Positions 21,774 to 40,216 of a DNA stretch of 64,000 nucleotides are shown here, piece after piece. Within the stretch, counting starts at the first letter, position 1; each line of letters begins with the position of its first letter. The notes under the pieces were generated by a model. The model worked only from the letters and a program-made list of their open reading frames with translations. It did no database searches and was not told the DNA's origin. The translations under genes and the position numbers were made by a program. The DNA comes from Polaromonas sp. (lineage in GTDB: Bacteria; Pseudomonadota; Gammaproteobacteria; Burkholderiales; Burkholderiaceae_C): assembly GCF_029945895.1 (NCBI RefSeq), contig NZ_JAQSDL010000043.1, positions 62,001-126,000 on the forward strand, read 5' to 3'.

Positions 21774-21867
21774 ATCACAGTATTTTCGGTTCCTGCCGGC
21801 AGAAACAGAACCCACCCGTTCTGATCACTTACCAGCGCAACGAAATCGTTTTTTAATGTGGAGACTT

Positions 21868-25081: not shown

Positions 25082-25852
25082 CTATATGGAAAATCCGTCA
25101 TCTACGACAAGATTTTGCCCGGTCAAATATTTTGAGGCATCTGACAACAAAAACAACAACACGCTGGAAATATCTTTACCCTCCAGCATTCCCTTTGAAC
25201 TGCAAAACGCCCTGTAATTCCGAAGGAATGACTCCGGCTGCTGATCGAGCACGCCTCCCGGGCTCAGGCTATTTACCCGGATGTGATCGTTCTTGAAATA
25301 TTGCGCGAAGTAGCGCGTCAAATGAATGACCGCTGATTTAATCGCGGCATACTCGACGGGCATGGTCATTTGGGTGTCGGAATATATCTCGAAGCGCGGA
25401 GCCATGACCCCATAAATGGACGCCATGTTAATGATATTTCCCTTCTGCTGGTTCCGGAAAAACAGCCCGAACTGCTGCGCCACAAGGAAATAGCCGCCCA
25501 AATGAAGCGACAAGTTCTGGCAGAAATCCTCATAGGTCACATTTTCCAGCTTGCGCCCATAGTGGGAATTGCGCGGATAGGCATTGTTTACAACGGAATC
25601 AATCCGGCCAAACCGCTCAAAGGCGGCGGATATAAGCGCGGCCACGGATGCCGTATCGGTTATATCCAGCTGCATTGCATACGCACGATCCGCGTATTGT
25701 TCAGGCAACTCGCTTACAAACTTTACGGCAGCGGCCATATCGATGTCGGCGACAACTGCGATTCCTCCGTGCTGCACAATATCGCGCACAAAAACGCGCC
25801 CGAGCAGTCCGGCACCACCGGTCACAACGACAACGGTTTCGTCAAGCATCAT
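25082..25852 (-). CDS. Short-chain dehydrogenase, PtmA-like
   Basis: A 256-residue classical SDR: TGGAGLLGRVF cofactor loop, NNAYPRNSHYGRK, ASIYGVMAPRFEIY, and the catalytic VEYAAIKSAVIHLTRYFA (Tyr-x3-Lys). The stretches YPRN, IYGV.APRFEIY and TMPVEYAAIK match what I recall of Campylobacter PtmA, an oxidoreductase in the legionaminic acid (ptm) locus. That match is from memory. Its reaction in the pathway is not something I can state. It begins 2 bases after the gene at 25855, so it is in the same unit as the UDP-xylose synthase-like gene. Confidence 0.85.
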   Translation of the reverse strand: MMLDETVVVVTGGAGLLGRVFVRDIVQHGGIAVVADIDMAAAVKFVSELPEQYADRAYAMQLDITDTASVAALISAAFERFGRIDSVVNNAYPRNSHYGRKLENVTYEDFCQNLSLHLGGYFLVAQQFGLFFRNQQKGNIINMASIYGVMAPRFEIYSDTQMTMPVEYAAIKSAVIHLTRYFAQYFKNDHIRVNSLSPGGVLDQQPESFLRNYRAFCSSKGMLEGKDISSVLLFLLSDASKYLTGQNLVVDDGFSI

Positions 25853-25854
25853 TT

Positions 25855-26793
25855 CTAACCGACAACTTTCTTGAAGTAGGCGATGGTTTTCTGCAAGCCT
25901 TCATCGAGTTCCACTTTTGGGGACCAGTCAAGTTTCGCCCGGGTCCTCGATATATCCGGCTGACGTTGCCTGGGGTCATCCTGAGGCAAGGGCAGAAAAA
26001 CAAGCTTGGACGTTGAACCGGTGAAGTGAAGCACTTTTTCAGCCAGTTCCAGCATCGTAAATTCACCGGGGTTTCCCAGATTCAGGGGTCCGGTGGTTTC
26101 TGCAGCAGAGTTCATCATTCGGATCAGACCGTCTACCAAATCATCCACGTAACAGAAACTGCGTGTTTGCTGGCCACTACCGTAGATGGTGATGTCCTCG
26201 CCCCTCAGCGCCTGGACAATGAAGTTGCTGACGACCCTGCCATCATTGGGATGCATGCGCGGGCCATATGTGTTGAAAATACGCACTACCTTGATCGGGA
26301 GCTGATATTGACGGTAGTAATCAAAAAATAGGGTTTCGGCACAGCGCTTGCCCTCGTCATAACAACTTCTTATACCGATGGGGTTGACCCGGCCCCAATA
26401 GTCCTCGGTTTGAGGGTGGACTTCAGGATCACCGTAGACCTCGGAGGTGGAGGCCTGAAGAATACGGGCTTTGGTCCGCTTGGCAAGTCCAAGCATATTT
26501 ATTGCTCCGATCACCGACGTTTTTGTAGTCTGTACGGGATCCATTTGATAATGGACAGGACTGGCCGGACATGCCAGGTTGTAGATCTGATCGACTTCGA
26601 CGTATAGCGGAAAAGTTATCTCGTGACGAACCGCCTCAAAGTATGGGTTACTGAGCAGGTGCGCTATATTTTCCTTGCTGCCTGTGAAATAGTTGTCAAC
26701 ACAAACGACATCATTTTCCTCCCGCAGCAGCCGCTCACACAAATGTGACCCGACAAAGCCGGCACCACCAGTCACCAGAATCCGCTTTTTCAT
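25855..26793 (-). CDS. UDP-glucuronate decarboxylase (UDP-xylose synthase-like)
   Basis: A 312-residue extended SDR with [62 protein letters not shown], and RSCYDEGKR with the catalytic Tyr. These are the signatures of UXS, which makes UDP-xylose from UDP-glucuronate. The precursor would come from the UDP-glucose dehydrogenase at 46015. The ATG at 26793 is chosen, with another start three codons upstream. It is separated from the glycosyltransferase before it by about 109 bases of A+T-rich sequence. Confidence 0.9.
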
Positions 26794-26902
26794 AATCACC
26801 ATTCTTTATTTTTTAGATCTTTGGTGAGCCAAGGCCCACGATGTGATCACAGGTCGACGACAACAATACCAGCCCAAGCCCTTATTGACAGGCCAGGGGA
26901 AT

Positions 26903-27802
26903 TCATTTTTCAAACTTGTACATTTCAAGTTTTTCCGATTCGGTCAGCTTGTAAGCTTCCAGTCCCACGGAAGTCTCTCCGGGACGCGGCAAGACATAGG
27001 CGACAACTTCGTCCAAAAAACCCATCCGAACGCCTGCGCCGTGAATGCGCAGGGATAAATCCACATCCCAAACCCTGTTCCATTCCTTGCGCCAGCAATT
27101 GACGTTGTAACGCATGAAGCGCAAGTAGGATCGATACAACCAGGTGGATACGCCGCCAATCTTTGGGCTGTCATCTACACCGGCCACGGGGCGGCGGGTG
27201 TAGTAAGGGTCGAGCGCTCTGACGCCATCCACAACTTTTCGCTCTCCGAATCGCTCTTCCTCGTATAAGCCCGACACGAACTCATACTGTCCCTGCTGGG
27301 CGAAGCGGAGAAGCTTCTCGATATGATCCGGCGACCAGGTGTCGTCGTCGTCCACACGGGCAATCCACTGACCGCGCGCCAGCTCCATGGCCGTGTTTGC
27401 GGGCGTGGCGCCGCCGACAAACCAGTGGTTCTCCACCGTTTGCCGGTAATTCCTGCTGCGACTTGGCAGGTTATAAAAACGCAGGCGGGGGTCTTTAATT
27501 TCAGCAAGCAACTCCGCCGTATTGTCGCTGCAGTGATCACCAACGATCATCAATTCAAGATTGGTGTAAGTTTGCGACAGCACTGAAGCAACCGCCCGCT
27601 CTATCAGCAAGGGACCACGATTGTAAGTTGGCACGCAAACCGTGACCAGCGGCTCCTGATGGGGGTGATCGTATTCTCGCGCGTGTTTCAAGCGCGCAAT
27701 CTGCAGTTGCACGGGCTCAATAAGGGCGAATCTGCTGCTGTTAAATCCCGCGATGACGCGATCTTCCATCGTTCGCGCATGAGTTGACGGGCTATCGGAC
27801 AT
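26903..27802 (-). CDS. GT2-family glycosyltransferase
   Basis: A 299-residue GT-A glycosyltransferase. It has TVCVPTYNRGPLLIERAVASVL, LMIVGDHCSDNT, and WIARVDDDDTWSPDH, with the DDDD run as the metal-binding motif. The ATG at 27802 is chosen because GGAGGGC stands at ideal spacing; it overlaps the upstream SDR gene by 11 bases. The first 50 residues precede the GT-A core and are not recognised. It could transfer the nonulosonic acid-associated or neighbouring sugar, but nothing in the sequence decides. Confidence 0.88.
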   Translation of the reverse strand: MSDSPSTHARTMEDRVIAGFNSSRFALIEPVQLQIARLKHAREYDHPHQEPLVTVCVPTYNRGPLLIERAVASVLSQTYTNLELMIVGDHCSDNTAELLAEIKDPRLRFYNLPSRSRNYRQTVENHWFVGGATPANTAMELARGQWIARVDDDDTWSPDHIEKLLRFAQQGQYEFVSGLYEEERFGERKVVDGVRALDPYYTRRPVAGVDDSPKIGGVSTWLYRSYLRFMRYNVNCWRKEWNRVWDVDLSLRIHGAGVRMGFLDEVVAYVLPRPGETSVGLEAYKLTESEKLEMYKFEK

Positions 27803-28499
27803 ATTGCCCTCCATTCAGGTCGATGCAGGCTCCGTTGAGATGCGCCCAGTGAGGCTGACATATGTCGAAAACAATGTCGGCTAGGGCCTGCTGGCCGAGC
27901 AACTGTTGTGAGGGCACTTGTTTTCGATGAAACTCCTGCCTTTGCACTGCCATCTCGACGAACATAGCACTGTCTTGTATCAATCCCGGAGCAACCGCAT
28001 TGATGCGCGCGCCGGAGGGTAATTGGGTACACACCGATTTGACGAATGAAAGCAATGCCCCCTTCGAGGCCGCATAAATTGGATCAAAACTGCCACGCTG
28101 GGCAGAGATTGAGGAAAACATCAGTAAGCGCGAGCGTTCCGTCAGGAGAGGCAGCATTCTCATAAGCACTTTGGCCTGTCCGCTGAAATTCACCGCCATC
28201 ACCTCATCCACTTCCTCAAACGCATATCCTTTCAAGTCCTTGCCTGGCAGTATTCCAGACAAGAAAATAACAACATCGATCCGCAAAGAGATTTTCTTGA
28301 GTTGCTCTACGAACCGCTCGATGCTCAAATCTTCACGCAAGTCCAAGTGGAAGGCATTGTGCTCGTCCGACCCTTCGGGCATTCGGGAGGTATACGTCGT
28401 AATGACGCGATCAGCCACTGAAAACCGTGAAGATATCGCCCGGCCAATGCTTGAGGACGCCCCAACAATGACAACCGTCTCCATTGCGCCCGAGCTCAC
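27792..28499 (-). CDS. Short-chain dehydrogenase
   Basis: A 235-residue classical SDR with VVIVGASSSIGRAIS near the N-terminus, FSSISAQRG, and YAASKGALLSFVKS (Tyr-x3-Lys), and a C-terminal GACIDLNGGQYVR. It is FabG-like in length but sits within the nonulosonic acid block after a methyltransferase gene. The GTG at 28499 overlaps the upstream stop (GTGA) and has GGAGA ahead of it; ATG 28484 is an alternative. It may be a reductase for a keto-sugar precursor. It is a second SDR beside the PtmA-like one at 25082. Confidence 0.85.
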   Translation of the reverse strand: MSSGAMETVVIVGASSSIGRAISSRFSVADRVITTYTSRMPEGSDEHNAFHLDLREDLSIERFVEQLKKISLRIDVVIFLSGILPGKDLKGYAFEEVDEVMAVNFSGQAKVLMRMLPLLTERSRLLMFSSISAQRGSFDPIYAASKGALLSFVKSVCTQLPSGARINAVAPGLIQDSAMFVEMAVQRQEFHRKQVPSQQLLGQQALADIVFDICQPHWAHLNGACIDLNGGQYVR

Positions 28500-29713
28500 G
28501 TCAGCGTCTCCCCGGAAGGGCCAGATCCCAGAACCACCAGTTCAGACCCGGAGAATGTCTTTCCTGTTTGTTGCCTTATCCACTCGATAATTTCAGCTTT
28601 GTAGCGCGGCGCACAAATGACCAGCAACTCGCTGTTCCTGATGTGCTCAATGGAATTTTTGGGTTCCAACACGCCCAGCCCATCGTTCTCAAGATGGTTT
28701 TGACGGCGCGGATCGGAGTCAACCACCGTCACCGACTCCGGCAGGGTGAAGCCGGCCAGCAGACGGCGAAGGAAATCCGTCACCGCCCACAAGGTCACTT
28801 TTTTTCCGCTTTTTCCCATGATGGCAAGTTGTTGCCTCACGATCTCAATCTGCAGCTCTGCACGCCGGATCTGCTCCAGCCCGCCGCGAACGCACGCCAG
28901 AGCATCAATAAATTCACAGCGGCCTCCAGTGTCGGGCACGACGTCCAAACCCTCCTTGCGAAATACCGAAAGAAATCCATAGGGCCGGCTGCAAACATGA
29001 CCGAGTTCTATGAGGCTGAGGCCCGCTTTTTCGGCAATCGCATTGAGCGTTGCAGCTGAAAAGTGATTGACGTGTTCAAACTCAAGCAACAGCAGATTGC
29101 GCGGATACAGCCGGAGATCGGGCACTTCACAGATCATGACGCCGCCCGGACGCAATGCGCGACAACAAGCGACCAGGAATTCCGTAACCTCTGACACATG
29201 TTCCAGCACGTCGTAGTGCGCCAATACATCGACGGAGTTTTCGGGCAGATCATGCACACTACGGAGTTCTGCTGGTGTATCTTCTGAAATTTCGACGACA
29301 AGCTGTTTTCCGAAAAGCGGCGAACAACGTCGGTGGAACTCACCCGGCTGGTCACCACCAATTTCTGCGAATACGCCGTCGGGCGCGCTATAGCGCTCAA
29401 GTACCGCCATTCGTGCATCCACAGAGTACGGAAGCCCGATCTCCTTGTGGCCAGCCAACCCGTCTGCATGGTAACGCGCAAGATCATCACGCTTGGGCCC
29501 GGGGGAGGCGAAGCAAAAACCGCAGTGGCGGCATACCGCAACATTAAAAGGAAATTTCCACGTATTCGTGGCGCGGGTCACGATGCTCTGGCTGGACCAC
29601 ACAGGTTCCAGATCGTTGCCGCCGCAACACTCGCACGAACGTGGTTCAAGGGATATCTCAAGCACTTTTTTTCCAGTAATTCTCAAAGGGATCAACGTAA
29701 AGCCAGAAGGCAC
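28496..29713 (-). CDS. Sugar C-methyltransferase-like protein with Zn-binding N-terminus
   Basis: A 405-residue protein with the three-part layout of NDP-sugar C-methyltransferases. The N-terminal cysteine cluster (CECCGG, CRHCGFCF) probably binds zinc. A divergent SAM-binding domain lies in the middle (VFAEIGGDQPGEF, VDVLAHYDVLEHVSEV). The C-terminal domain includes KVTLWAVTDFLRRLLAG. The SAM loop (EIGGDQPG) differs from the usual DIGSN.. form. The GTG at 29713 overlaps the legF-like gene by 22 bases; a GTG at 29665, after GGAAAAAAA, would give 389 residues and may be the real start. A relative with more typical motifs is at 42089. Confidence 0.75.
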   Translation of the reverse strand: MPSGFTLIPLRITGKKVLEISLEPRSCECCGGNDLEPVWSSQSIVTRATNTWKFPFNVAVCRHCGFCFASPGPKRDDLARYHADGLAGHKEIGLPYSVDARMAVLERYSAPDGVFAEIGGDQPGEFHRRCSPLFGKQLVVEISEDTPAELRSVHDLPENSVDVLAHYDVLEHVSEVTEFLVACCRALRPGGVMICEVPDLRLYPRNLLLLEFEHVNHFSAATLNAIAEKAGLSLIELGHVCSRPYGFLSVFRKEGLDVVPDTGGRCEFIDALACVRGGLEQIRRAELQIEIVRQQLAIMGKSGKKVTLWAVTDFLRRLLAGFTLPESVTVVDSDPRRQNHLENDGLGVLEPKNSIEHIRNSELLVICAPRYKAEIIEWIRQQTGKTFSGSELVVLGSGPSGETLT

Positions 29714-30384
29714 TCTGCAATTCGGAAGTCCAGAAGTGTGTCTATATCCAGTGCGCGTTCCACTGGGACGTGGACTTGACGCACCCTTCCCTCAAAAGCG
29801 GCACTGCGCGCGATAACAAACTCCGGCCGGGCGACATATGCCACGGTGGTCATGTCGAAAACTTGTGGGGCATCCTGCCGGCGCGACACCGCCGACTCCG
29901 GCGGGATGACCAGGCCGACTGTTCCGTCAGGATGAATTTTCACCATATTGAAATACGGACTGCGATGCGCATCGGTCACAGTGATGACTATGTCCGCATC
30001 GCCCTTCTCGTATTCATCCAGGCAATTTTCGATGTCTTCAGGCAGCCTCAACGGTGCCGTGGTGGGCACGGACACCATTGCATCAGGCAACACCCCATCG
30101 CTGTCCAGCAGGTAATTGAGCCCATGTCGCCAGGCCAACCATTCCGGACTGTCATCGCCTGCCAGCTCGCTTGGTCTGATAAAAGGCACTTCTGCGCCAT
30201 GCGCACGAGCCACTTCGGCTATTTCAATGGAGTCGGTTGACACTATCACCCGCGTTATGCGTTTGACAGCCAGTGCGTGTTCAATCGCCCAGGCTATCAA
30301 AGGTTTCCCGCCGAGAGACCGGATGTTCTTCCCGGGCAAGCCCTTGGAGCCGCCCCGGGCGAAAATGAAGGCTATCGCTTTCAA
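29692..30384 (-). CDS. legF: CMP-nonulosonate cytidylyltransferase (LegF/NeuA family)
   Basis: A 230-residue acylneuraminate cytidylyltransferase-type enzyme, which activates a nonulosonic acid as its CMP form. Signatures are FIFARGGSKGLPGKNIRSL at the N-terminus, RVIVSTDS, and VPTTAPLRLPEDIE in place of the usual QPTSPLR. The C-terminus ERALDIDTLLDF matches the family. A TTG at 30384 is the likely start: it overlaps the upstream stop as TTGA and has GAGGGG six bases ahead. The LegF name rests on the LegB/LegC genes of the same operon, since sequence motifs alone do not separate LegF from NeuA or PseF. Confidence 0.85.
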   Translation of the reverse strand: MKAIAFIFARGGSKGLPGKNIRSLGGKPLIAWAIEHALAVKRITRVIVSTDSIEIAEVARAHGAEVPFIRPSELAGDDSPEWLAWRHGLNYLLDSDGVLPDAMVSVPTTAPLRLPEDIENCLDEYEKGDADIVITVTDAHRSPYFNMVKIHPDGTVGLVIPPESAVSRRQDAPQVFDMTTVAYVARPEFVIARSAAFEGRVRQVHVPVERALDIDTLLDFRIAECLLALR

Positions 30385-31415
30385 GCTTTCCCCTCTGTCG
30401 CTGCATGGTCCTTGATGACAATTCGGCCACCCGTCCCCGATGCCTGGCGAACAGCGTCAATGATCTGCATCACCTTGAAACCGTCTTCCCCACTGACGAA
30501 CGGTTTCGATTTTCCTTCTACACAAGCCAAAAAATTTCCCCACTGCGCACGATAGCTGTCCTCGCGTTGATGCTGATAGCGGAAAAGCTCACGCCAGTTC
30601 TTCGCCCCTGCTTCAAACAACTCCACCGTACCTGTCAATCCGTCCCAGCGCAGGCTGCCCAGTTCTCCGATGGAGGTACACAGCCGTGTTGTATCGTGAC
30701 GCACCAGATCCATGCTCAAGGTTCCAATCAGTTGATGACTGTCTGCCTCCGGAGCAAAACCCAGCATCAGATGGACCGTATCTTCGACATCAATTTCCAG
30801 GCGACTCTGTCGAGACAGACAAGCTTCCACCCAATCGATCTCACCAAAAATCCAGCGGAGATAATCCAGTTCATGGCTGAGCTCAAGCAATGCGCCGCCG
30901 CCCAGATCATGTCGTGCCGACACCCCCTGCCTATAGTCAACGTCCGCGCGCCAAGACGGCAGATATTGCCCGATCTCACAACGCACGGAGAGAACCTTTC
31001 CGATCACATTCTGCTTTAAGAGATCGCGAAAACGTTGCAATGAAGGCAGGAAGCGCAGGTTGTAGCCGGTCAGCAGGACCAGCCCACCTGAGCGACAGGA
31101 ATCAATCAGGCCCTGCACTCCTTCAGCGGCAATTGACAAAGGTTTCTCAACCATCAGATGCACGCCTGCATCTGCCAGTGATTGGGCCGCGCTGAGGTGA
31201 AATGGAGCCGGATTGGCGATGACCGCCATTTGCGGCCGAAAAGCAATGGCCTGATCCATTCTGGAAAAGCCCCCATTGGCCTGCTCTGCAAGCAACGCCC
31301 CTTCTTCACGGCGCAGGACCCTTATATCCGCATGGGGAAGAAGTTCCCTGGCCAAGCGCAAATGAAGCTTGCCAATGCTCCCCAACCCCACGACAAGGAC
31401 ACGACTAACTGACAC
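30381..31415 (-). CDS. Gfo/Idh/MocA-family oxidoreductase (PtmF-like position)
   Basis: A 344-residue NAD(P)-dependent oxidoreductase. The N-terminal Rossmann region reads VLVVGLGSIGKLHLRLA, followed by VMVEKPLS-type sequence (LMVEKPLSIAAEGV, catalytic Lys) and a C-terminal substrate domain with ALLELSHELDYLRWIFGE. Between a PtmE-like and a LegF gene it occupies the place I recall for PtmF in Campylobacter ptm loci. Its exact step is not established here. The GTG at 31415 overlaps HisH by 11 bases with weak AAGG ahead; the 3' end overlaps legF by 4. Confidence 0.85.
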   Translation of the reverse strand: MSVSRVLVVGLGSIGKLHLRLARELLPHADIRVLRREEGALLAEQANGGFSRMDQAIAFRPQMAVIANPAPFHLSAAQSLADAGVHLMVEKPLSIAAEGVQGLIDSCRSGGLVLLTGYNLRFLPSLQRFRDLLKQNVIGKVLSVRCEIGQYLPSWRADVDYRQGVSARHDLGGGALLELSHELDYLRWIFGEIDWVEACLSRQSRLEIDVEDTVHLMLGFAPEADSHQLIGTLSMDLVRHDTTRLCTSIGELGSLRWDGLTGTVELFEAGAKNWRELFRYQHQREDSYRAQWGNFLACVEGKSKPFVSGEDGFKVMQIIDAVRQASGTGGRIVIKDHAATEGKA

Positions 31416-32809: not shown

Positions 32810-32818
32810 CGTATCCTC

Positions 32819-34153
32819 TTATTCTTTTTCGTTTGAAACTGGGTGGCGCAACTTCCATTCGCCATTTTCCTGATACCAAAGATGAGGGGACCGAAACTGA
32901 TCCGTCAGCAGGCGGAAATACTCACGATCCATCAACGGCTTTTCGAACATCTTGCTGGCTTCCGGGAACTCCTTCTCCGGCAAGCTCAAATATTGAAACA
33001 TTTCCTCAATAAATCGCTCGGGGTACTCATGGTCAAAGCGCTTGACCAAGGCAACCCCTTCCTCGCGATTGATGTCCCTTGAGCGGATCTCCTGCGCCGC
33101 ATCATAGCTGGCCCGTCCAATACCGAATTTCGTCCCCGTGGTGTAGTAATGAAGATCATCAATGCGGTCATCAATGCTGTTGTACTTCGAGTAAGTTCCG
33201 GGTGTCCGTTCAGGGGAGGCCTGAAAACCTCCGTGTTCGACCGCATAGTAATAACAGGACTGCGGGTGCCATTTCAGATAGTAGCCAAGATAATGCACCT
33301 CAATATTCTTTTCGGAGATCTGGTTGGGGTCGGCTGGCAGATAAGGCTGCAGGTCATTCTGATCCAATCCAAAATTCCCTTTCAAATCTGCGACGGAAAC
33401 ACCGCCGAGATAGATTTTCGACTGATCTTCTGCCGCGAAATAAGACCAGTCACGTTTTGCGGTATCCGTGTCCCCAATCGGGTTACCATATTCCGCTTCA
33501 TTTTCGCCGTAGAAGACCAGGGGAATGTTAAACAGCAGCGCCATTTTGGGGGCAAGTGCCTTTTGCCCAAACATGAACGCCTGGAAGGGATGGAAAAGCA
33601 GTTCCGTCGAGAGCCGCGTTAACAACCTGTGCACGCGGCCATTGGGCGTCATCAGATAATTGTCGTGTCCAGCATGGAGCCAGGACTGGAAGTTCTTCCA
33701 GCCCCATTCGGTGTAGACGTGGGGCGCCCAAGTGACAGTGAGCGGGTGCATGCCGTATTTGGTCTTCAGGATATGGGATGCGTAAAAGCTGTCCTTTCCC
33801 CCTGAACCGGGGACGATGCAATCATAGGAACCGTCATTTTTGCGATGCTTGTCGCAAAGGTCCCGCAATTGCTTTTCACGTTCAGCCCAATCAATGCCGT
33901 GATGCTTGCGCTCGGCAAAGTTACAGGCGTCGCAAACACCATTTTCGTCAAAATGGATGGTCGCCTTCTTGGTGTCTTTGGTGTGCTTGTACTCCACTGC
34001 AGAGTTTGGACGCTGGTTGGAGATGACGCACTTCTTGCAGTAACTAACCGTTTCCGGCAGTCCATAACGAGCGCTTGGATTTTTTGCATCTTTTGCGAAC
34101 AGGCTCAAATCGACAGGCTGGGGATACTTTATTTTTTCCATTTCTGAATCCAT
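32819..34153 (-). CDS. N-acetyl sugar amidotransferase (WbpG/PseA family)
   Basis: A 444-residue PP-loop ATP pyrophosphatase-like enzyme. The N-terminus has two CxxC pairs (Cys39/Cys42 in SYCKKC, Cys74/Cys77 in CDAC), probably for zinc. The PP-loop SGGKDS is at 117-122, then VTWAPHVYTEWGWKNF and ENEAEYGNP. WbpG converts an N-acetyl group on a sugar to an acetamidine using ammonia from HisH2/HisF2; PseA does a similar step on pseudaminic acid. Here hisF and hisH follow directly. In this operon the target is probably the legionaminic acid-type sugar. The ATG at 34153 is clear. Confidence 0.92.
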   Translation of the reverse strand: MDSEMEKIKYPQPVDLSLFAKDAKNPSARYGLPETVSYCKKCVISNQRPNSAVEYKHTKDTKKATIHFDENGVCDACNFAERKHHGIDWAEREKQLRDLCDKHRKNDGSYDCIVPGSGGKDSFYASHILKTKYGMHPLTVTWAPHVYTEWGWKNFQSWLHAGHDNYLMTPNGRVHRLLTRLSTELLFHPFQAFMFGQKALAPKMALLFNIPLVFYGENEAEYGNPIGDTDTAKRDWSYFAAEDQSKIYLGGVSVADLKGNFGLDQNDLQPYLPADPNQISEKNIEVHYLGYYLKWHPQSCYYYAVEHGGFQASPERTPGTYSKYNSIDDRIDDLHYYTTGTKFGIGRASYDAAQEIRSRDINREEGVALVKRFDHEYPERFIEEMFQYLSLPEKEFPEASKMFEKPLMDREYFRLLTDQFRSPHLWYQENGEWKLRHPVSNEKE

Positions 34154-34161
34154 GTTTAAGT

Positions 34162-35214
34162 TTAATTACTATTTTCGGTGTTTGCGCGATTCAAATCGTC
34201 CGGGCGGCCTACATCCAGCCAGGGTTCGTGCATGGGGTATGCAACTGTGCGCATGGCCTTCGCCTGAAGGCGTTCAAACAGGGTAGGCATGTCGCAGTGT
34301 GCGTCTTGGCTCAGCAGATTTAACGCGACCGGCTCGAGTGCATAAACGCCTGCATTGATGTGGCTGCGGGCCACCGGTTTTTCCTCGAATCCTACAATTT
34401 CGATACCCCGAGTCTGCACAACACCAAAAGGGTGCTGCCATTCGTGCATGCGAACCGCCATGGTCGCCATGGCGTTATGACGGATGTGGAAGTCCAGCAA
34501 TTCACCATAGTGGATATCGGTAATGACATCCCCATTTGTCACAACAAAAGGGGCCCCCGGCCGCGGACTCAGAAGACCCAGTGCACCGGCGGTTCCCAAC
34601 GGCGATTTCTCGTTCAGATAGTCTATCTGTACCCCCAGCTGCCCTCCATTGCCAAAATGACTTTGAATCATATGCCCCAGGTAATGAACAGCGAGCACGA
34701 AATGACTAAAACCCTCGAGTTTGGCTCGCTCGATGATATGTTCGAGCATCGGTTTGCCCGCTACGGGCAATAACGGCTTTGGGCAGGTCTCCGTGTAGGG
34801 GCGCAGACGTGTGCCCATGCCGCCCGCCATGATGATCATCAGATTGGAGCGCGCCGGCAACGTGGTGATCTCGTCCCAAAGGTGCACACCCACTACCTGA
34901 CGCAACTCATTCACGATAGGTATCTGCTGTATCTTGTTGGCGCCCATAAGCTGGAGCACCACATCGCGCCCCATTTCTGGAGTAACCACCAGGGCATTCC
35001 GATGGATGACGCTGGCAATAGGACTGCTGAGGTCAAGCCCCTTGAGCAAACCGCGCCTTATGTCGCCATCGGAAATCGTACCTTCCAGTTCGCCGGCCTC
35101 ATTAACAACCATGACAATTTTGATGGACGCCTGGTCAAGGCTGCGTATCGCATGCTGTATGGAGGTTTTGACAGGGAGAATGGCTTGGCGCCAGCGTTCT
35201 TCAGTGGGGCTCAC
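34162..35214 (-). CDS. CBS-domain sugar-phosphate nucleotidyltransferase (PtmE-like)
   Basis: A 350-residue protein with two CBS domains in the first 115 residues (VVNEAGELEGTISDGDIRRGLL, VVGVHLWDEI). A nucleotidyltransferase domain begins at about 128 (IIMAGGMGTRLRPYT) with CPKPLLPVAGKPMLEHI, FVVTNGDVITDI and VGRPDDLNRA. Campylobacter PtmE, with the same architecture, makes GDP-GlcNAc in the GDP route to legionaminic acid. The GTG at 35214 starts 3 bases after the LegG stop and has AAGG ahead. The CBS pair may sense a nucleotide. The GDP-sugar specificity is by analogy. Confidence 0.87.
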   Translation of the reverse strand: MSPTEERWRQAILPVKTSIQHAIRSLDQASIKIVMVVNEAGELEGTISDGDIRRGLLKGLDLSSPIASVIHRNALVVTPEMGRDVVLQLMGANKIQQIPIVNELRQVVGVHLWDEITTLPARSNLMIIMAGGMGTRLRPYTETCPKPLLPVAGKPMLEHIIERAKLEGFSHFVLAVHYLGHMIQSHFGNGGQLGVQIDYLNEKSPLGTAGALGLLSPRPGAPFVVTNGDVITDIHYGELLDFHIRHNAMATMAVRMHEWQHPFGVVQTRGIEIVGFEEKPVARSHINAGVYALEPVALNLLSQDAHCDMPTLFERLQAKAMRTVAYPMHEPWLDVGRPDDLNRANTENSN

Positions 35215-35217
35215 TTG

Positions 35218-36390
35218 TCACACCTTGCTTGGTTGCTGCAGATCATGAAAAAACTTCTTTGCAATGTGTCCGATGGGATGCTCCTTGAGAATTCTGAGCA
35301 CCTTCTCGCTGGCGCCACCCTCCCCGTAGGGATTGCGTACCTGCCTCAAGCTCGTTTGGAAGCCTGCGGAATACAGCCGCTCCAGCGCGGCCGTAATATC
35401 CCCTCGCTCAGGTGCGCAGTTGATGATGCTCGCCGCCTGCAGCCTCCCGCGCTGGCGGTCGCCAATGTTGACTGTTCCCTTTTTGAAACTGGGAACCTCC
35501 GCCAAGCCGCTGGATGAGTTGCCCACCACACCATCAACCTGGGCAATGCAAGATAAATACCGCAATTGGCCAAGCGATACATAAAGGCGAGCATTGGCGT
35601 GCCGTTCAACAAATTGCGTCACCATCTGGATAAGAACCCGGCCCTCGGTATCTGCATTTGGCAAGGTAAAAACAAGCTGGGTATCGTGCAGTTCATCCAG
35701 TGAGGCCAACAGTTCCGCCATTTGATCGGCCGCTGCGTGGGTCTCAAGAGTGGCTGGATGAAAGGTAATGAGCAAGCTCTTCTCGCCAAGGCTGAACTCG
35801 AGCGATGCTTCAAGTGCAGCTCTGTCCAGAAGATGGATTCGTTTGATGCTATCGACGCCAAGACCGCCGACCAGAAACACGCGGTCTGGCTGTTCCCCCA
35901 GCTGAATCACTCGTTGCCTGTACTCTTCCGCTGCCACAAAATGCAAATGAGACATCTTGGTGATGGAATGGCGAAGGGCTTCGTCAAAAGCGCCCTCGGT
36001 GAGTTCGCCGCCATGCAAATGTGCAACCGGCACGCGCGCAACCAGGGCAGCGGCTACCGCAGCAAAAATCTCAAACCGATCGCCGAGCACCACGATCAAA
36101 TCGGGCCGCAATTCGCTCAGCGCCTGACCGAACCCGATCAAGCCCAGGCCCATGGACTTGGCAATCGCAGCCGGCGTATCGGCGCCCACAAGGATCTCGA
36201 TCTTGCGATCAATCTGGAATCCATGTTGCTCGATCTCTCGATAGGTGAGGCCGAACTCGGGAGACAGGTGCGTACCCGTAGCGACGACCTGAAGCACCAG
36301 ATCAGGATCGTCCTTGATGCCTTGCATTACCCAGCGCAGCAAGCCGTATTCGGCCCGGGTGCCGGTAATGACACAGATTTTGCGGCTCAT
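35218..36390 (-). CDS. legG: Hydrolysing nucleotide-sugar 2-epimerase (LegG/NeuC family)
   Basis: A 390-residue UDP-GlcNAc 2-epimerase-fold enzyme of the hydrolysing NeuC group: ICVITGTRAEYGLLRWVM at the N-terminus, VVLGDRFEIFAAVAAAL, HLHGGELTEGAFDEALRHSITKMSHLHF, and VVGNSSSGLAEVPSFKKGTVNIGDRQRGR. In the legionaminic pathway it turns NDP-diNAc-bacillosamine into free 2,4-diacetamido-6-deoxymannose. The ATG overlaps the LegI stop (ATGA). The NeuC group contains both sialic and legionaminic enzymes; LegB and LegC in the same operon favour LegG. Confidence 0.9.
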   Translation of the reverse strand: MSRKICVITGTRAEYGLLRWVMQGIKDDPDLVLQVVATGTHLSPEFGLTYREIEQHGFQIDRKIEILVGADTPAAIAKSMGLGLIGFGQALSELRPDLIVVLGDRFEIFAAVAAALVARVPVAHLHGGELTEGAFDEALRHSITKMSHLHFVAAEEYRQRVIQLGEQPDRVFLVGGLGVDSIKRIHLLDRAALEASLEFSLGEKSLLITFHPATLETHAAADQMAELLASLDELHDTQLVFTLPNADTEGRVLIQMVTQFVERHANARLYVSLGQLRYLSCIAQVDGVVGNSSSGLAEVPSFKKGTVNIGDRQRGRLQAASIINCAPERGDITAALERLYSAGFQTSLRQVRNPYGEGGASEKVLRILKEHPIGHIAKKFFHDLQQPSKV

Positions 36391-37394
36391 AACTCGATCA
36401 ATTCGTCTGCGGAATAATCACGCGCCGCGCGGCGCCCGATGACCTCATCCCAGCGCATGGGGGATATGCCGGTACCGGGCCGCTTGGCAGTGATATTTTC
36501 TGCGCTGAACAATTCACCTGCCTTGATGGACCGGTTGCTCACCAGCGATTTGCGTGCGATGGGCTTGTTTCTGAGTTCGCTGGAAGTCAGCCGTTTTATC
36601 CCGTCACCCAACGCCACTTCGATGTTGCGAATTGCCGTGACCATCGCCTTGAATTCGCCGGGCTCCAAGCTGGCCTTGTGATCAGGACCTGGCAGATGGT
36701 GGTCCACGGTCAAGTGCTTTTCGATGACGAGCGCACCCATGGCGACCGCGGCAATAGCCACCTCGATGCCGGCCGTATGGTCTGAATACCCGACCGCCAC
36801 ACCAAACGCAGCTTGAATACTTTGCATGGCGCGCAGGTTCACTTCGGCCATGGGCGTAGGGTATTCCGTGGTGCAATGCAACACCGTGATGTTGGCACGC
36901 GGCGTTCCGGCCTGTTCGAGCACGGCGATAGCGGCCTCGATATCACCCAAAGTTGCCATGCCAGTCGAAAGAATAACCGCCTTGCCAAGGCGGCCGACGT
37001 GGCGCAAATATGGCAAATTGGTAATTTCCCCGGATGGGATCTTGAAGTGATCCTGCCCCAAACTCAAAAGCAGGTCGATGCTCTCATTATCGAATCCGGT
37101 AGAAAAGAAACCGATATGGGACTTGGCACAGTGTGCGACGAGCTCCTGGTGCATTTCAGGACTGAGTTCCAAACGGCGCAGCATTTCATGCTGTGACTCC
37201 TGACTGTCGGTGGTCTTGTTCTGATAGTCGGCTTTTTTCGCACCACGCGTGACCAGGCGGTTTGCATTGAAGGTCTGGAACTTCACCAGGTCGGCGCCGG
37301 CTGCCGCAGCAGCCTCAATCAGCTGCCTGGCCAGATCGAGATCGCCGTTGTGATTCACGCCCGCTTCAGCAATGATGAGAGTTCGTTGTTTCAT
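36387..37394 (-). CDS. legI: Nonulosonic acid synthase (LegI/NeuB family)
   Basis: A 335-residue synthase that condenses a six-carbon amino sugar with phosphoenolpyruvate. The NeuB barrel has LIIAEAGVNHNGDLDLARQLI, DLVKFQTF, FFSTGFDNESIDLLL, KIPSGEITNLPYLRHVG, LHCTTEYPTPMAEVNLRAM and GYSDHTAGIEVAIAAVAMGA, and the C-terminal SAF antifreeze-like domain is from about 275 (RKSLVSNRSIKAGELF, KRPGTGISP). LegI is preferred to NeuB because the operon has LegB, LegC and an acetyltransferase. It is coupled to legG by a 4-base overlap. Confidence 0.92.
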   Translation of the reverse strand: MKQRTLIIAEAGVNHNGDLDLARQLIEAAAAAGADLVKFQTFNANRLVTRGAKKADYQNKTTDSQESQHEMLRRLELSPEMHQELVAHCAKSHIGFFSTGFDNESIDLLLSLGQDHFKIPSGEITNLPYLRHVGRLGKAVILSTGMATLGDIEAAIAVLEQAGTPRANITVLHCTTEYPTPMAEVNLRAMQSIQAAFGVAVGYSDHTAGIEVAIAAVAMGALVIEKHLTVDHHLPGPDHKASLEPGEFKAMVTAIRNIEVALGDGIKRLTSSELRNKPIARKSLVSNRSIKAGELFSAENITAKRPGTGISPMRWDEVIGRRAARDYSADELIEL

Positions 37395-37401
37395 GATCTG
37401 T

Positions 37402-38019
37402 CTATCCTACGAAGCGGGTTCCACTTGCTTGACTGTGCCGCACGGACAGCCCCATGCCGACCATGCAACCCTCGCCCAGCGCAATGCCCTCCCTGATGAC
37501 GCTGCCACTGCCAACATAGCTCCCTGCGCCAACGCGGGTATTGCCATTAAGAATGGCACCGGTCGAAATATGGCAGTTGGCCTCCACTATCGCGTCATGC
37601 TCAACAAGCGCCCGGGAGTTGATGATGCAGTTGTCCCCCACCTCGGCGCCGGCATTGACGACTGCACCGTGCATAACGATGCTGCCCACGCCAATAGTGG
37701 CATGACGAGAGACATAAGCCGCTGGCGAAATGACGGTCGGCAGTTGAAAGCCCAATTCAAGGAGCCGGAAATAAAGTCTGATGCGGACATCGGGGGACCG
37801 AATCTGGCCAACGCTGATAAAGGCATGCCGATATTGCCCGGCCAGTTCATGCAGATCGGCGTCAGTTGCGATAACAGAATACCCAATATGCAAGGAATCC
37901 ACTTCGTCGGGCATGCCGATCAATCCCGCAATCTGGTAACGCCCCTGCTGCTCGATGACGTCAATGCACGCGTGCGCGTGCCCACCCGCACCAACGAGGA
38001 TGAGGCCGGGCTTGCTCAT
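37402..38019 (-). CDS. NeuD/LegH-type sugar O/N-acetyltransferase
   Basis: A 205-residue left-handed beta-helix acetyltransferase. The N-terminal Rossmann-like PglD_N region (ILVGAGGHAHACIDVIEQQG) is followed by hexapeptide repeats from about residue 105 (ATIGVGSIVMHGAVVNAGAEVGDNCIIN, with H117-type catalytic His in the H.. region). In this setting it would acetylate the 4-amino group of the NDP-sugar made by LegC, that is LegH, although NeuD-type proteins can also O-acetylate sialic acids. The start overlaps the LegC stop (ATGA). Confidence 0.87.
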   Translation of the reverse strand: MSKPGLILVGAGGHAHACIDVIEQQGRYQIAGLIGMPDEVDSLHIGYSVIATDADLHELAGQYRHAFISVGQIRSPDVRIRLYFRLLELGFQLPTVISPAAYVSRHATIGVGSIVMHGAVVNAGAEVGDNCIINSRALVEHDAIVEANCHISTGAILNGNTRVGAGSYVGSGSVIREGIALGEGCMVGMGLSVRHSQASGTRFVG

Positions 38020-39194
38020 GGACCGACGGGCACCAGACCCGCGCTGCTCGGAATGTTGATCAGGCGCTGTGCCAGCGAAAGGGCACCAGACAGATCCATA
38101 CGCTGGCTATCCTTGAACGGCGTCAACTCATGCATGAGAATCCAGACCGGGCGCGTCATGAGACCCGCGTCATTGGTTGCCTTCAATATCAGATCGCGTT
38201 GATCCGATTGCGCCACGTCCAGCAACAAGGCCTGCAACCAGTAGTTGCTACGACATTGTTCAGGCTCCTTCACCAGTTCGACACCGGGCACCTGCGAAAA
38301 AGCGGCTTGGTACCTTTCAAACAATGCCCTCTTTGAAGAAAGCATGTCGGGCAATTTTTCCAGCTGAGCACAACCCAGGGCCGCGTTCAGGTTGGGCATT
38401 CGGTAGTTGTACCCCACCTCGTCATGCCGATACTCCCACGCGTGCGGCACCTTGGCAGTTGTGGTCAGGTGCTTGGCACGAACCGCGAGTTCTGCGTCGT
38501 TGGTCAGAATCGCGCCTCCTCCGCCGGTAGTGATCGTCTTGTTGCCGTTAAAGCTCAAGGTTCCCAATTTTCCAAACGTCCCGGTATGTTGTCCGTGGTA
38601 ATAACTTCCCAGCGACTCGGCTGCATCTTCCACCAGTGCAAGATTGAAGTCGGATGCAACGGAAAGAACGCCATCCAGGTCAACCGGATGACCAAAAGTG
38701 TGCATTGGCACCAACGCCCTGATAATGCGACCAGTAGCACGATTAACGCATTGGCCGAGGCGTTGATCGGTGTGATTGCGAAGGTACTCTCTGAGTTTTG
38801 CGGCATCTACGCCCAGGTTTCGGACATCGCTATCGATCAAATGGGGGGTGGCCCCACAATAGGTTACCGCGTTGGCAGTAGCTGCAAAGGTAAGAGCCGG
38901 GATCAGGACCTCATCGTCGGCTTTGACACCGGCCAGCTTCAAGGCGATATGCAGAGCCGCGGTCCCATTGACAACCGCGACCGCGTGCTTGGCGCCTGTA
39001 AACGCCGCCAGCTCAACCTCAAATCGGTCAACAAACTTTCCCACCGAGGAAACGAATGTGGAATCGAGACACTCCTTGAGATATTGCCATTCGTTTCCGG
39101 AAAAGCTGGGCTCGTGCAGGACCGCAGGCCGGGCTCCGACAACGCTCTTAATGGCAGCAACAATTTCCTCAGCAAGAAGCGGCGATGTGCTCAT
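38016..39194 (-). CDS. legC: LegC-family PLP aminotransferase
   Basis: A 392-residue DegT/DnrJ/EryC1-fold aminotransferase. The signatures are those of LegC: LHEPSFSGNEWQYLKECLDSTFVSSVGKFVDRFE in the N-terminal region (quoted in part), VNGTAALHIALKLAGV, VPMHTFGHPVDLDGV, LVEDAAESLGSYY, FNGNKTITTGGGG with the PLP Lys, and YRMPNLNAALGCAQLE. It adds the 4-amino group to the 4-keto-6-deoxy sugar from LegB. The ATG at 39194 is chosen because the alternative upstream codon is TTG inside legB. This gene and legB are the best evidence for a legionaminic rather than sialic or pseudaminic product. Confidence 0.92.
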   Translation of the reverse strand: MSTSPLLAEEIVAAIKSVVGARPAVLHEPSFSGNEWQYLKECLDSTFVSSVGKFVDRFEVELAAFTGAKHAVAVVNGTAALHIALKLAGVKADDEVLIPALTFAATANAVTYCGATPHLIDSDVRNLGVDAAKLREYLRNHTDQRLGQCVNRATGRIIRALVPMHTFGHPVDLDGVLSVASDFNLALVEDAAESLGSYYHGQHTGTFGKLGTLSFNGNKTITTGGGGAILTNDAELAVRAKHLTTTAKVPHAWEYRHDEVGYNYRMPNLNAALGCAQLEKLPDMLSSKRALFERYQAAFSQVPGVELVKEPEQCRSNYWLQALLLDVAQSDQRDLILKATNDAGLMTRPVWILMHELTPFKDSQRMDLSGALSLAQRLINIPSSAGLVPVGP

Positions 39195-39199
39195 GTCAT

Positions 39200-40216
39200 T
39201 CAAAGGTTGTAAATGTCCGTCTTGTAAGCACGCAGATTGTCTGGCTTTGTGAACCAGACGGCAGTCTCAGCCAGACCGCGCTTGAATCCCTCGCGCCCTC
39301 CGTATTCAGGTTGCCAGCCAAAGAGTGCCTTTGCCTTGGCGTTGCCGGCCCATAGTCGCTCGACTTCCGAGTTTTCGGGGCGCAAGCGGGCTTCGTCAGT
39401 CAGAATCTCGATCTCCGCATTCATGACTTCGGCGATTAGCCGGGCGGTCTCACCAATAGAGATTTCGAAATTACTGCCGAGGTTGACAACCTCGCCCAAG
39501 CCCTGATCTGAATTGAGTATGGCGATAAAACCCGCGACCGTGTCCTGCACGAAATTGAAATCGCGCGTAGGAGACACCGCACCCAGCTTAATCTGCCGTT
39601 GCCCTTTGGCGATCTGAGTAATGATTGTCGGAATTACGGCGCGCGCGGACTGGCGCGGTCCATACGTGTTGAAAGGCCGCGCAATAACCACGGGCAGCCC
39701 GAAGGATGCGTAGAACGAATACGCCAGCTGATCTGCTGCTATCTTGGTGGCAGAGTACGGCGACTGACCTTGCAGTGGATGCTCCTCGGTGATGGGTACA
39801 AAACGTGCTGTGCCATAGACTTCGCTGGTTGATGTATGGACCACCCTTTTGACGCCAAGCTCGCGCGCCGCCTGCAGCACGTTCAGAGTTCCCTTGATAT
39901 TGGTATCCACATAGGTGTCAGGCGAGTGATAGGAATAAGGGATCGCGATAAGGGCTGCCAGATGAAGTACCACGTCACAATCCGTCATTGCCATTTTGAC
40001 GCCGTGCGGGTCACGAATATCACCGGAAAAAACTTCGATCTTGTCTTTTACATCCGGCGCGCACTGATCAAGCCAGCCCCAGGAATTGAAGGAGTTATAG
40101 AGAACGAAAGCGCGCACCGTATGTCCCTGCCGCACCAGCTCCTCGGTCAGGTGGGATCCGATGAAACCGTCCGCGCCGGTGACGAGAATTCTTGATGTTT
40201 TAGACTGGATGTTCAT
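39200..40216 (-). CDS. legB: LegB-family NDP-N-acetylglucosamine 4,6-dehydratase
   Basis: A 338-residue extended SDR. Signatures are ILVTGADGFIGSHLTEELV, LAALIAIPYSYHSPDTYVDTN, TSTSEVYGTARFVPI, and QSPYSATKIAADQL (Tyr-x3-Lys). ARPFNTYGPRQSARAVIPT then DFNFVQDTVAGF complete the LegB pattern. It removes water from UDP- or GDP-GlcNAc keeping C5 configuration, the first committed step to legionaminic acid. With the PtmE-like gene in the operon the GDP-sugar is the likelier substrate. Its start overlaps the end of the ABC transporter gene by 17 bases. Confidence 0.92.
   Translation of the reverse strand: MNIQSKTSRILVTGADGFIGSHLTEELVRQGHTVRAFVLYNSFNSWGWLDQCAPDVKDKIEVFSGDIRDPHGVKMAMTDCDVVLHLAALIAIPYSYHSPDTYVDTNIKGTLNVLQAARELGVKRVVHTSTSEVYGTARFVPITEEHPLQGQSPYSATKIAADQLAYSFYASFGLPVVIARPFNTYGPRQSARAVIPTIITQIAKGQRQIKLGAVSPTRDFNFVQDTVAGFIAILNSDQGLGEVVNLGSNFEISIGETARLIAEVMNAEIEILTDEARLRPENSEVERLWAGNAKAKALFGWQPEYGGREGFKRGLAETAVWFTKPDNLRAYKTDIYNL

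Follow-up and report, generated by a model that had tools for sequence, protein, structure and literature searches.

A candidate operon for amidinated legionaminic acid with a Legionella-type amidination cassette in a Polaromonas-like bacterium

Gene content of the locus

The window, a stretch of 64,000 nucleotides from a Polaromonas sp., had been read from sequence alone as encoding LegB to LegF and a PtmA-like dehydrogenase at 25082..40216, and all of these genes are present there on the minus strand. They belong to one tightly packed run from 41999 to 26903, in the order ABC exporter, legB-legC-legH-legI-legG, ptmE, wbuX-hisF-hisH, ptmF-like gene, legF, methyltransferase, SDR and glycosyltransferase, with a UXS-like gene and ptmA following after a further 100 bp. 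Within the run, from the ABC gene down to the glycosyltransferase (26903), neighbouring genes are spaced by −23 to +9 bp; the next junction is 100 bp, and the last two are +2 and +9. Family cut-offs are those of the curated NCBIfam models and domains are from Pfam.

40200..41999, minus: ABC exporter, MsbA/PglK-like, candidate flippase (MsbA 256 and PglK 255 bits, both below cut-off)
39200..40216, minus: legB, NDP-GlcNAc 4,6-dehydratase (TIGR04180, 536.5 bits, cut-off 475)
38016..39203, minus: legC, aminotransferase (TIGR04181, 542.2, cut-off 420)
37402..38019, minus: legH, NeuD-family N-acetyltransferase (TIGR03570, 175.8, cut-off 160.8)
36387..37394, minus: legI, legionaminic acid synthase (NeuB model TIGR03569, 507.4, cut-off 399.65; motif KIPSGE)
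35218..36390, minus: legG, hydrolysing 2-epimerase of the NeuC family (TIGR03568, 471.3, cut-off 235.9)
34162..35214, minus: ptmE (LegX), CBS plus nucleotidyltransferase, predicted GlcN/GlcNAc-1-P guanylyltransferase (Pfam NTP_transferase and CBS; PtmE tree)
32819..34153, minus: wbuX, N-acetyl sugar amidotransferase, Legionella type (TIGR03573, 392, cut-off 203.2)
32039..32809, minus: hisF-like (wbuZ), predicted ammonia channel (WbuZ match 280.2, below cut-off 299.7)
31405..32052, minus: hisH-like (wbuY), glutaminase (TIGR01855, 189.7, cut-off 105.4; GICLG and HPE motifs)
30381..31415, minus: ptmF-like Gfo/Idh oxidoreductase, gfoF (Pfam; position in L181, L182 and L193)
29692..30384, minus: legF, CMP-sugar synthetase (position and identity to genes in the LegF position)
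28496..29713, minus: methyltransferase, mt28 (sugar C-methyltransferase fold, predicted model, pLDDT 75)
27792..28499, minus: SDR oxidoreductase, sdr27 (profile search)
26903..27814, minus: glycosyltransferase family 2, gt26 (Pfam)
25855..26802, minus: UXS-like NAD-dependent decarboxylase/epimerase (77% identical to its positional counterpart in L076)
25082..25852, minus: ptmA-like SDR dehydrogenase (PRK09186, 349.7, cut-off 255)
23963..25072, minus: FAD-dependent oxidoreductase, fad23 (Pfam DAO; same place in L076, 55%)

The set LegB, LegC, LegH, LegI, LegG and LegF of the CMP-legionaminic acid pathway is thus encoded in full, LegF by position and identity only; the genome has no other LegB above cut-off. 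As judged from its sequence, the nonulosonate synthase is of the Leg type and not of the Pse type: the PseI model scores 291.5 on LegI, under its cut-off of 340.25, and KIPSGE recurs in LegI of three Campylobacterales loci (L181, L182 and L193), whereas four Pse-like relatives (L107, L183, L184 and L187) read KIASFE. Since two leg-operon rows (L098 and L117) read KIGSGE, it is mainly LegB and LegC that speak for Leg rather than Neu. No family model exceeds its cut-off on LegF (PseF 136.1 against 205.7); its identity is 34–37% to the genes in the LegF position of L181, L182 and L193 and 31–79% across ten loci.

The ABC exporter gene overlaps legB by 17 bp, and an ABC gene also precedes legB in L045, L067, L071 and L076. 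After legF, a methyltransferase had been reported in the sequence-only reading; it is there and was considered as a PtmH-type N-methyltransferase acting on the amidine, yet its predicted fold is that of sugar C-methyltransferases (Foldseek ranks 1–18 are TcaB9, KijD1 and MtmC), and it probably lies outside the pathway and acts on another sugar. Membership of the pathway is putative for the SDR at 27792, the glycosyltransferase at 26903 and the gene at 25855, all inside the block 25082..40216. No sdr27 match was found in L076 and no family above cut-off for the gene 25855..26802, which we call UXS-like. At 12004-15819 the window also has genes for a 4,6-dehydratase-like protein, a sugar transferase and an epimerase. 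Housekeeping HisF of the host shares 96.5% identity with its counterpart in a Polaromonas MAG, in keeping with the betaproteobacterial host proposed earlier. Most likely, these genes form the sugar-nucleotide part of an O-antigen-type locus in a Polaromonas-like bacterium, the O-antigen use being presumed.

The wbuX-hisF-hisH cassette

Between ptmE and the ptmF-like gene, where a WbpG/PseA-type enzyme with HisF and HisH had been claimed, stands wbuX-hisF-hisH. Over 438 residues, WbuX shares 72.4% identity with the L. pneumophila enzyme of solved structure (PDB 8WEX), and both fall in one 18-row clade with support of 100/98, which supports the Legionella-like amidination suggested before; identity to the Campylobacterales type is about 30%. 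The enzyme carries the PP-loop SGGKDS (pattern SGGxDS), a pattern missing in its strict form from 11 of 44 WbuX relatives, and the tetracysteine CKKC..CDAC. We recognised the LpNASAT subtype by a gap between the cysteine pairs that is longer by about 15 residues, together with a place in the 8WEX clade. A 29-residue spacer occurs in 23 of the 44 rows, including the window and 8WEX, and also in a sister clade (L044, L072, L073, L078 and L127). By spacer and clade, the window's WbuX is assigned to the LpNASAT subtype.

The cassette hisF and hisH are second copies, with housekeeping hisF and hisH elsewhere in the genome. Cassette HisF keeps D11 and has E at 130, and so lacks one of D11 and D130, which we take to be the two catalytic aspartates and whose joint presence we used to recognise histidine synthesis. 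At least one of them is lost in all 35 cassette HisF and both are kept in all 15 housekeeping HisF; the lost aspartate differs between two clades of cassette HisF. The HisH motifs are present in 34 of 34 cassette copies.

As WbuX is 72% identical to the L. pneumophila amidotransferase, the product is likely CMP-Leg5Am7Ac. The O-chains of L. pneumophila carry a 5-acetamidino sugar, according to PMC3766260, and position 5 is therefore a better guess than 7 for the amidine; by analogy with this Legionella product, we infer that WbuX acts on N5 of legionaminic acid.

PtmE, the sugar nucleotide and the proposed pathway

PtmE had been described as carrying two CBS domains. Pfam matches only one, and the predicted model (pLDDT 87) supplies a second unit built of the same succession of helix, two strands and helix. 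Sequence comparison found full-length relatives, and no NCBIfam family exceeds its cut-off (best, a mannose-1-phosphate guanylyltransferase model, 139.5 against 440). The four best PDB sequence relatives are GDP-mannose pyrophosphorylases (one of them, 7whr, identified through its sister entry). A fold search with the model ranked tlr0611, named a UTP-glucose-1-P uridylyltransferase, first and MurU, which uses UTP, third, leaving the base used by PtmE between GTP and UTP. Identity to PtmE from Campylobacterales (loci L178-L182 and L193) is 32–34%, and PtmE of the window falls in a separate clade. The gene starts 3 bp after legG, and 110 of the 120 PtmE loci that were fetched contain members of at least two among five leg families, a nearness partly built in because most loci were found through PtmE. 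None of the five was found in the stretches at hand of L077 and L080, two of the 21 loci of the window's clade, so that PtmE of this clade can serve something else. The ptmF-like gene is 24–38% identical to Campylobacterales genes (24–30% to those in the same place in L181, L182 and L193), and the PtmA model NF050062 scores 268.2 on the ptmA-like SDR, below its cut-off of 350. GDP is the likely carrier of the leg precursors, as judged from these sequences, since there would be no point in a dedicated nucleotidyltransferase if the pathway drew on housekeeping UDP-GlcNAc.

We consider it probable that the operon makes amidinated legionaminic acid by a GDP-linked leg route with PtmE, followed by WbuX-HisF-HisH amidination to CMP-Leg5Am7Ac, with a cassette exchangeable after ptmE. 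PtmE, helped by PtmF and PtmA, would supply a dedicated GDP-GlcNAc pool, which LegB would dehydrate; LegC would then add an amino group and LegH acetylate it. LegG would free and epimerise the sugar, LegI would join it with phosphoenolpyruvate to give Leg5Ac7Ac, and LegF would convert this to CMP-Leg5Ac7Ac. HisH would split glutamine and ammonia would pass via HisF to WbuX, which with ATP would turn the 5-N-acetyl into an acetimidoyl group, giving CMP-Leg5Am7Ac. Gene order, tight packing, family membership, WbuX kinship with the Legionella enzyme and the catalytic motifs kept or lost are direct observations; the reactions, nucleotide, amidine position, isomer (Leg rather than an epimer) and O-antigen use are deduced from them.

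The same pathway might instead run on UDP-linked sugars, as in L. pneumophila and B. subtilis, with PtmE making another nucleotide sugar or being a relic. UDP-type legionaminic pathways are known (PMC3766260 and PMC7439481), and the distance of PtmE from the Campylobacterales leg-locus enzyme (about 33% identity), the presence of MurU and a uridylyltransferase among its nearest folds and the two clade members without leg genes all fit such a route. It is nevertheless unlikely given the place of ptmE directly behind legG, its company in the fetched loci and the use of GTP by its four best solved sequence relatives.

Another N-acetyl sugar of the O-unit might also be the substrate of the cassette, whose position within the leg operon would then be incidental. 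WbpG acts on ManNAc3NAcA and WbuX of E. coli O145 on L-FucNAc (PMC10607449), the proteins encoded at 12004-15819 could make other N-acetyl sugars, and one plasmid record holds a 64% identical WbuX with no leg genes found there. Against this, which we regard as quite improbable, the WbuX clade includes the enzyme of L. pneumophila, whose O-chain is 5-acetamidino legionaminic acid, and five of seven plasmid records found by WbuX alone (at least 40% identity) hold nonulosonate genes in the stretch read. In the Azospirillum lipoferum record wbuX has only ptmE next to it, the two flanked by recombinase and transposase genes, and in the Subdoligranulum record sequence comparison of the stretch read found no leg gene. 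Nor do we expect the nonulosonic acid to be an epimer (8-epi- or 4-epi-legionaminic acid), although PtmE-type clusters also serve such sugars and 8eLeg5Am7Ac is the product in Aliivibrio salmonicida, whose cluster contains PtmE (PMC7371886): KIPSGE of LegI matches the Campylobacterales ptm-locus LegI, a motif whose power to separate epimers is putative, and no additional gene from legB through legF could be recognised as an epimerase.

Related loci and exchange of the cassette

The GDP-linked CMP-legionaminic acid pathway of the Campylobacter ptm/leg locus was reportedly described by Schoenhofen in 2009. The comparison with ptm and Legionella loci proposed earlier shows that the Campylobacterales order is shared and is interrupted by the cassette: L181, L182 and L193 (from the order of Sulfurimonas) read legI legG ptmE gfoF(ptmF) legF ptmA, followed by a gene 621-639 codons long, which we take to be maf-like. 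Also common to Campylobacter and the window are the LegB/LegC/LegH families and an amidotransferase gene within the locus or close to it. The window differs in the low identity of PtmE and WbuX to the fetched Campylobacterales genes, in having within the operon a cassette that brings hisF and hisH of its own, and in being an O-antigen-type locus rather than one ending in such a long gene. Campylobacter is not alone in keeping such an order, since consecutive Leptospira accessions run legB-C-H-I-G-ptmE (Table 1 of PMC3438082).

The LPS locus of Legionella pneumophila (ORF 21-28; LpNASAT) resembles the window in its WbuX, in O-antigen use (PMC3766260) and, for the species, in hisF and hisH within an O-antigen cluster (PMC3694923); it differs by a UDP-linked route with the dehydratase outside the LPS locus (PMC3766260), and the available parts name no PtmE for it. 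Rows 2-9 of Table 5 of PMC4481668 give PtmA, LegF, PtmF, PtmE, LegH, LegI, LegG and LegC for a Plesiomonas shigelloides flagellar cluster, where legH, not legG, lies beside ptmE, the use is flagellar and no amidotransferase appears in those rows. A Rhizobium sp. WL3 plasmid (NZ_CP042825.1) shares LegB, LegC, NeuC, NeuB, an acetyltransferase, PtmE-like, Gfo/Idh, cytidylyltransferase, SDR, WbuX (73%), WbuZ, HisH and an ABC transporter, but has its cassette after the SDR instead of after ptmE, and its PtmE is 42% identical. Nearly the whole operon occurs in Methylophilaceae bacterium AH-229-A22 (L076), as abc-legBCHIG-ptmE-wbuX-hisF-hisH-gfoF-legF-mt28-gt26-uxs-ptmA-fad23 at 46–77% identity, differing by a formyltransferase and a PIG-L deacetylase between legG and ptmE and the lack of sdr27. 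With the same gene set also in loci from several phyla, the parts are already known and their combination is found in many sequenced bacteria, not in the window alone.

New here are the variability of the cassette after ptmE and the clade-specific loss of a HisF catalytic aspartate. L067 is 65–87% identical to the window in legB, C, H and I, 71% in ptmE and 64/79% in gfoF/legF, against 33/26/39% in wbuX/hisF/hisH; Azonexus L138 shows the reverse, with ptmE at 41% and wbuX at 84%. Within the window's PtmE clade, the site after ptmE is empty or holds one of several deeply different amidination cassettes, and the neighbouring genes on at least one flank remain orthologous. Judged from these sequences, the cassette seems to be an exchangeable module, swapped as a unit just after ptmE. 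More tentatively, at a little under an even chance, the junction would be a module slot in which diverged glutamine-dependent cassettes (Legionella-type wbuX-hisF-hisH, hisH-hisF types or none) are swapped as units between orthologous neighbours, even among near Polaromonas relatives, with two HisF-HisH lines freed from histidine synthesis by loss of different catalytic aspartates.

The surprise is limited, as the gene set is common in sequenced bacteria. Even so, one betaproteobacterial operon joins the PtmE supply of Campylobacter, probably GDP-linked, with a Legionella-type amidotransferase and its own HisF-HisH, routes described apart before, and offers an enzyme source for amidinated legionaminic acid outside known pathogens. 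Exchange of the cassette at a single site opens the evolution of amidine decoration to direct tests, and a true slot would let bacteria change both charge and antigenicity of a surface sialic acid analogue in a single step.

The low-G+C locus and its legionaminic genes

The window, positions 62001-126000 of contig C43 in an assembly of 4.1 Mb, has a G+C content of 50-58% at about 10-50 kb versus 60-70% outside; lowered G+C is usual in surface polysaccharide loci. The minus-strand genes between about 52 and 10 kb start with rhamnose-type genes, a sugar dehydrogenase, manC, gmd and a C-methyltransferase (names at 47-52 kb were assigned by eye). An MsbA/PglK-like ABC exporter, the legionaminic block and glycosyltransferases follow on the same strand, and the run closes toward 10 kb with two Wzy_C-domain proteins, a sugar transferase and a 4,6-dehydratase-like protein. 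Between the ABC gene and the glycosyltransferase gene at 26903 all junctions measure -23 to +9 bp; downstream come a 100 bp gap and then junctions of +2 and +9 bp to ptmA and an FAD oxidoreductase gene. Four of these genes are discussed individually:

40200-41999, minus strand, MsbA/PglK-like ABC exporter
32039-32809, minus strand, HisF of the amidination cassette wbuX-hisF-hisH
28496-29713, minus strand, methyltransferase (mt28)
20190-21815, minus strand, glycosyltransferase

Against a Polaromonas MAG, the genome's housekeeping HisF shows 96.5% identity and its flanking DNA 82-88%, which makes the host a Polaromonas-like betaproteobacterium; no 16S match was found in the assembly. Nonulosonic acid genes, including legionaminic ones, are also reported for the betaproteobacterium Accumulibacter (PMC8053191, PMC12925313).

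LegB, LegC, NeuD/LegH, NeuB/LegI and NeuC/LegG all exceed curated NCBIfam cut-offs, which bears out the sequence-only reading that a legionaminic-type gene set is present; WbuX does so too, and HisF, PtmA and LegF fall short of the cut-offs set for their most specific models. LegI scores 507 with the NeuB family versus 291 with PseI, and it carries the motif KIPSGE, as does LegI of the Campylobacterales ptm loci. Among its weak relatives, four Pse-like proteins read KIASFE and three, taken for Neu-like, read KIGSGE. Because two leg-operon rows (L098, L117) also read KIGSGE, the proline cannot serve as a strict marker. The discriminating site of NeuB-type synthases at this motif is Gly versus Phe, according to PMC7371886, and among 96 LegI rows it is G in 92, M in one, A in one and unread in two. 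The same paper states that Leg synthases carry Tyr at NeuB position 184; contrary to this, the alignment places Thr there in the window, and the 56 of the 96 LegI rows readable by pattern (40 unread) have T in 46 and S in 10. On the family scores together with the LegI motif, a pseudaminic or a plain sialic acid pathway is rejected.

The amidination module and the nucleotide carrier

The WbuX of the window is 72.4% identical over 438 residues to PDB 8WEX, the L. pneumophila enzyme (PMC10607449), and the PP-loop, tetracysteine and extra residues of 8WEX are all present. In the WbuX tree it falls within the 18-row clade of 8WEX (100/98), with Methylophilaceae and Azonexus sequences nearest, and the Campylobacterales amidotransferases group apart in a clade of their own. 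The L. pneumophila relative is said, by homology with PtmG, to convert CMP-Leg5Ac7Ac to CMP-Leg5Am7Ac (PMC3766260). Scanning viral contigs with the one WbuX sequence of the window brought up no relative.

The HisF and HisH of the cassette are second copies, the other pair lying on contig C107. The nucleophile and HPE motifs are kept in 34/34 cassette HisH. The 35 cassette HisF, that of the window included, form two clades of 25 rows (support 99) and 10 rows (98), which join at support 90 (not starred) on long branches, so that one recruitment or two may lie behind them. Each clade lacks a different one of the two catalytic aspartates. In the larger clade D11 is kept in 24/24 readable rows and D130 is replaced by E (24) or Q (1); in the smaller, D11 is replaced by L, V, I or F and D130 is kept. 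Both residues, essential in HisF, are present in 15/15 housekeeping proteins.

In Campylobacter, PtmE (LegX) marks the GDP route (PMC13317340). The PtmE of the window is 32-34% identical to those of Campylobacterales loci L178-L182 and L193, and a 119-row tree groups it in a clade of 22 (23 if L140 is counted) at support 100; nine Campylobacterales ptm-type rows make up another clade. Its four closest solved sequences are GDP-mannose pyrophosphorylases, and the folds closest to its model are a mix of uridylyltransferase, MurU and GDP-mannose pyrophosphorylases. Judged from these comparisons, GTP is the likely substrate. At least two of the five leg families scored occur in 110/120 PtmE loci; in two of the 21 loci of the window's PtmE clade, L077 and L080, no gene of the five was found in the stretch examined. 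The PtmE proteins of these two loci are 56% and 51% identical, respectively, to that of the window.

The main points of the sequence-only interpretation are supported, including a Legionella-like amidination module, for which the identity of WbuX to 8WEX and its place in that clade speak; GDP as carrier, the isomer and the amidine position stay predictions from sequence.

Methyltransferase, glycosyltransferase and exporter

mt28 is over the cut-off for no specific family. When its model (pLDDT 75) was compared with known folds, places 1-18 went to the sugar C-methyltransferases TcaB9 and KijD1, and MtmC, at E 9e-18 to 5e-16, followed by a gap to 2e-9. Because the predicted fold is that of a sugar C-methyltransferase, mt28 would act on another sugar of the glycan. 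The same predicted fold speaks against mt28 as the N-methyltransferase of the amidine, in a comparison that included no PtmH. Of 349 genomes sampled from the order and 369 from the class, the window's own alone has mt28 at E 1e-40; besides the window, it was found in L076, a locus of Methylophilaceae AH-229-A22, where the UXS-like, glycosyltransferase and FAD oxidoreductase genes also occupy the same places.

The glycosyltransferase at 20190-21815 matches the BFO_1060 family and TIGR04396, both under cut-off. Among 120 loci it has a single weak match, and a 28% relative adjoins hisH in locus L236; we regard it as a candidate legionaminyl transferase. The ABC exporter gene overlaps legB. No Wzx gene was recognised among the window genes looked at, so the exporter may be the flippase. 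PADLOC, run on two genes, gave no lead.

Spread of the operon and probable exchange of the cassette

No true PtmE was found in 24 other genomes of the genus (best match E 8e-17) or in 16 genomes of other families of the order (best match E 6e-26); since these matches are limited to the nucleotidyltransferase part, they are paralogues. A scan of species genomes (genome_contigs) by PtmE alignment confirmed at least 509 matches; the 80 best of these comprise 19 at 51-82% identity and 61 at <=45%. PtmE matches at E 1e-45 or better occur in 32 of 369 genomes sampled from the class, a count that takes in the window's genome; two of the 32 are at 58 and 66% identity. Of 199 Campylobacterales genomes, 42 have a match. 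L076 holds the operon nearly whole, with the ABC and FAD oxidoreductase genes at its two ends, at 46-77% identity; it differs in an additional formyltransferase and PIG-L deacetylase before ptmE and in having no sdr27. Other carriers of leg operons that combine PtmE with a WbuX from the clade of the window include Geotalea, Methyloversatilis, Gallionellaceae, Rhodocyclaceae, Nitrospira, Cohnella, Magnetospirillum and Azonexus. A Rhizobium plasmid has, besides wbuX, wbuZ and hisH, nine genes whose annotation or position matches leg/ptm genes. With L076, many other taxa and this plasmid holding it, the kind is widespread, which rules out a gene set unique to the window; the combination is common in public genomes. 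The open-licence literature, as far as covered, names no operon with wbuX-hisF-hisH after ptmE.

As a control independent of PtmE, a tblastn search of plasmids with WbuX gave 11 records, of which the seven at >=40% were covered over stretches of 19-25 kb and the four at <40% set aside. Genes for a nonulosonate synthase and a cytidylyltransferase are present in 5/7: Rhizobium WL3, Roseovarius, Pseudohalocynthiibacter and two Azospirillum, with Roseovarius and Pseudohalocynthiibacter non-independent, as they carry the same proteins. The A. lipoferum plasmid (L233:4861-18692) has ptmE beside wbuX between recombinase and transposase genes, and no leg genes were found there besides this pair. Comparison revealed no nonulosonate genes in the unannotated Subdoligranulum record.

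Some loci carry other insertions or rearrangements. In L067:5683-9939, between legI and ptmE, the usual legG is replaced by ORF6N, 3-hydroxyacyl-CoA dehydrogenase-like and GNAT-like genes, a gene starting like PIG-L (by eye) and a divergent legG (29%). Pseudomonas laurentiana (L127:1181-11038) has a leg and amidination operon with only a short ptmE-like frame (4616-4927), and a full-length ptmE (41%) nearby on the opposite strand. The formyltransferase and PIG-L pair of L076 (6747-8287) lies between legG and ptmE. Gene pairs of similar length are present in L081, L055, L137 and L140; such pairs may be a second exchangeable N-acyl module.

wbuX directly follows ptmE in 9/19 readable loci of the window's PtmE clade versus 4/79 other PtmE loci (Fisher p 2.7e-5, kinship not corrected for), and it lies within five genes of ptmE in 20/79 of the latter. 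The 19 are the 21 clade loci, window excluded, minus two contig ends (L066, L081); the count leaves aside 20 Campylobacterales regions (L178-L197) and places L140, which joins the clade on a long branch, among the others. For L127 the full-length ptmE was used and not the short frame with wbuX after it, and L139, where hisF-hisH directly follow ptmE and wbuX comes further on, was scored as a miss. The window and L076 share the Legionella-type cassette; L044, L072, L073 and L078 have a sister type, L070 a further type, and L045, L067 and L064 types with hisH before hisF; L065, L068, L069, L071, L074, L075, L077, L079, L080 and L082 have no wbuX within five genes of ptmE.

Compared with the window, L067 has identities of 87% for legB, 75% for legC, 65% for legH, 78% for legI, 29% for legG and 71% for ptmE before the cassette, 33, 26 and 39% for wbuX, hisF and hisH within it, and 64 and 79% for gfoF, the ptmF-like gene, and legF after it. 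The Polaromonas locus L064 is 70-82% identical from legB to ptmE, 30, 39 and 39% in the cassette and 33% in legF. L065 has ptmE at 79%, no cassette, gfoF at 67% and legF at 75%, and Azonexus L138 has ptmE at 41%, wbuX at 84%, hisF at 74%, hisH at 64% and legF at 31%. These patterns are best read as exchange at one junction, in which the cassette, or everything after ptmE, would have been swapped.
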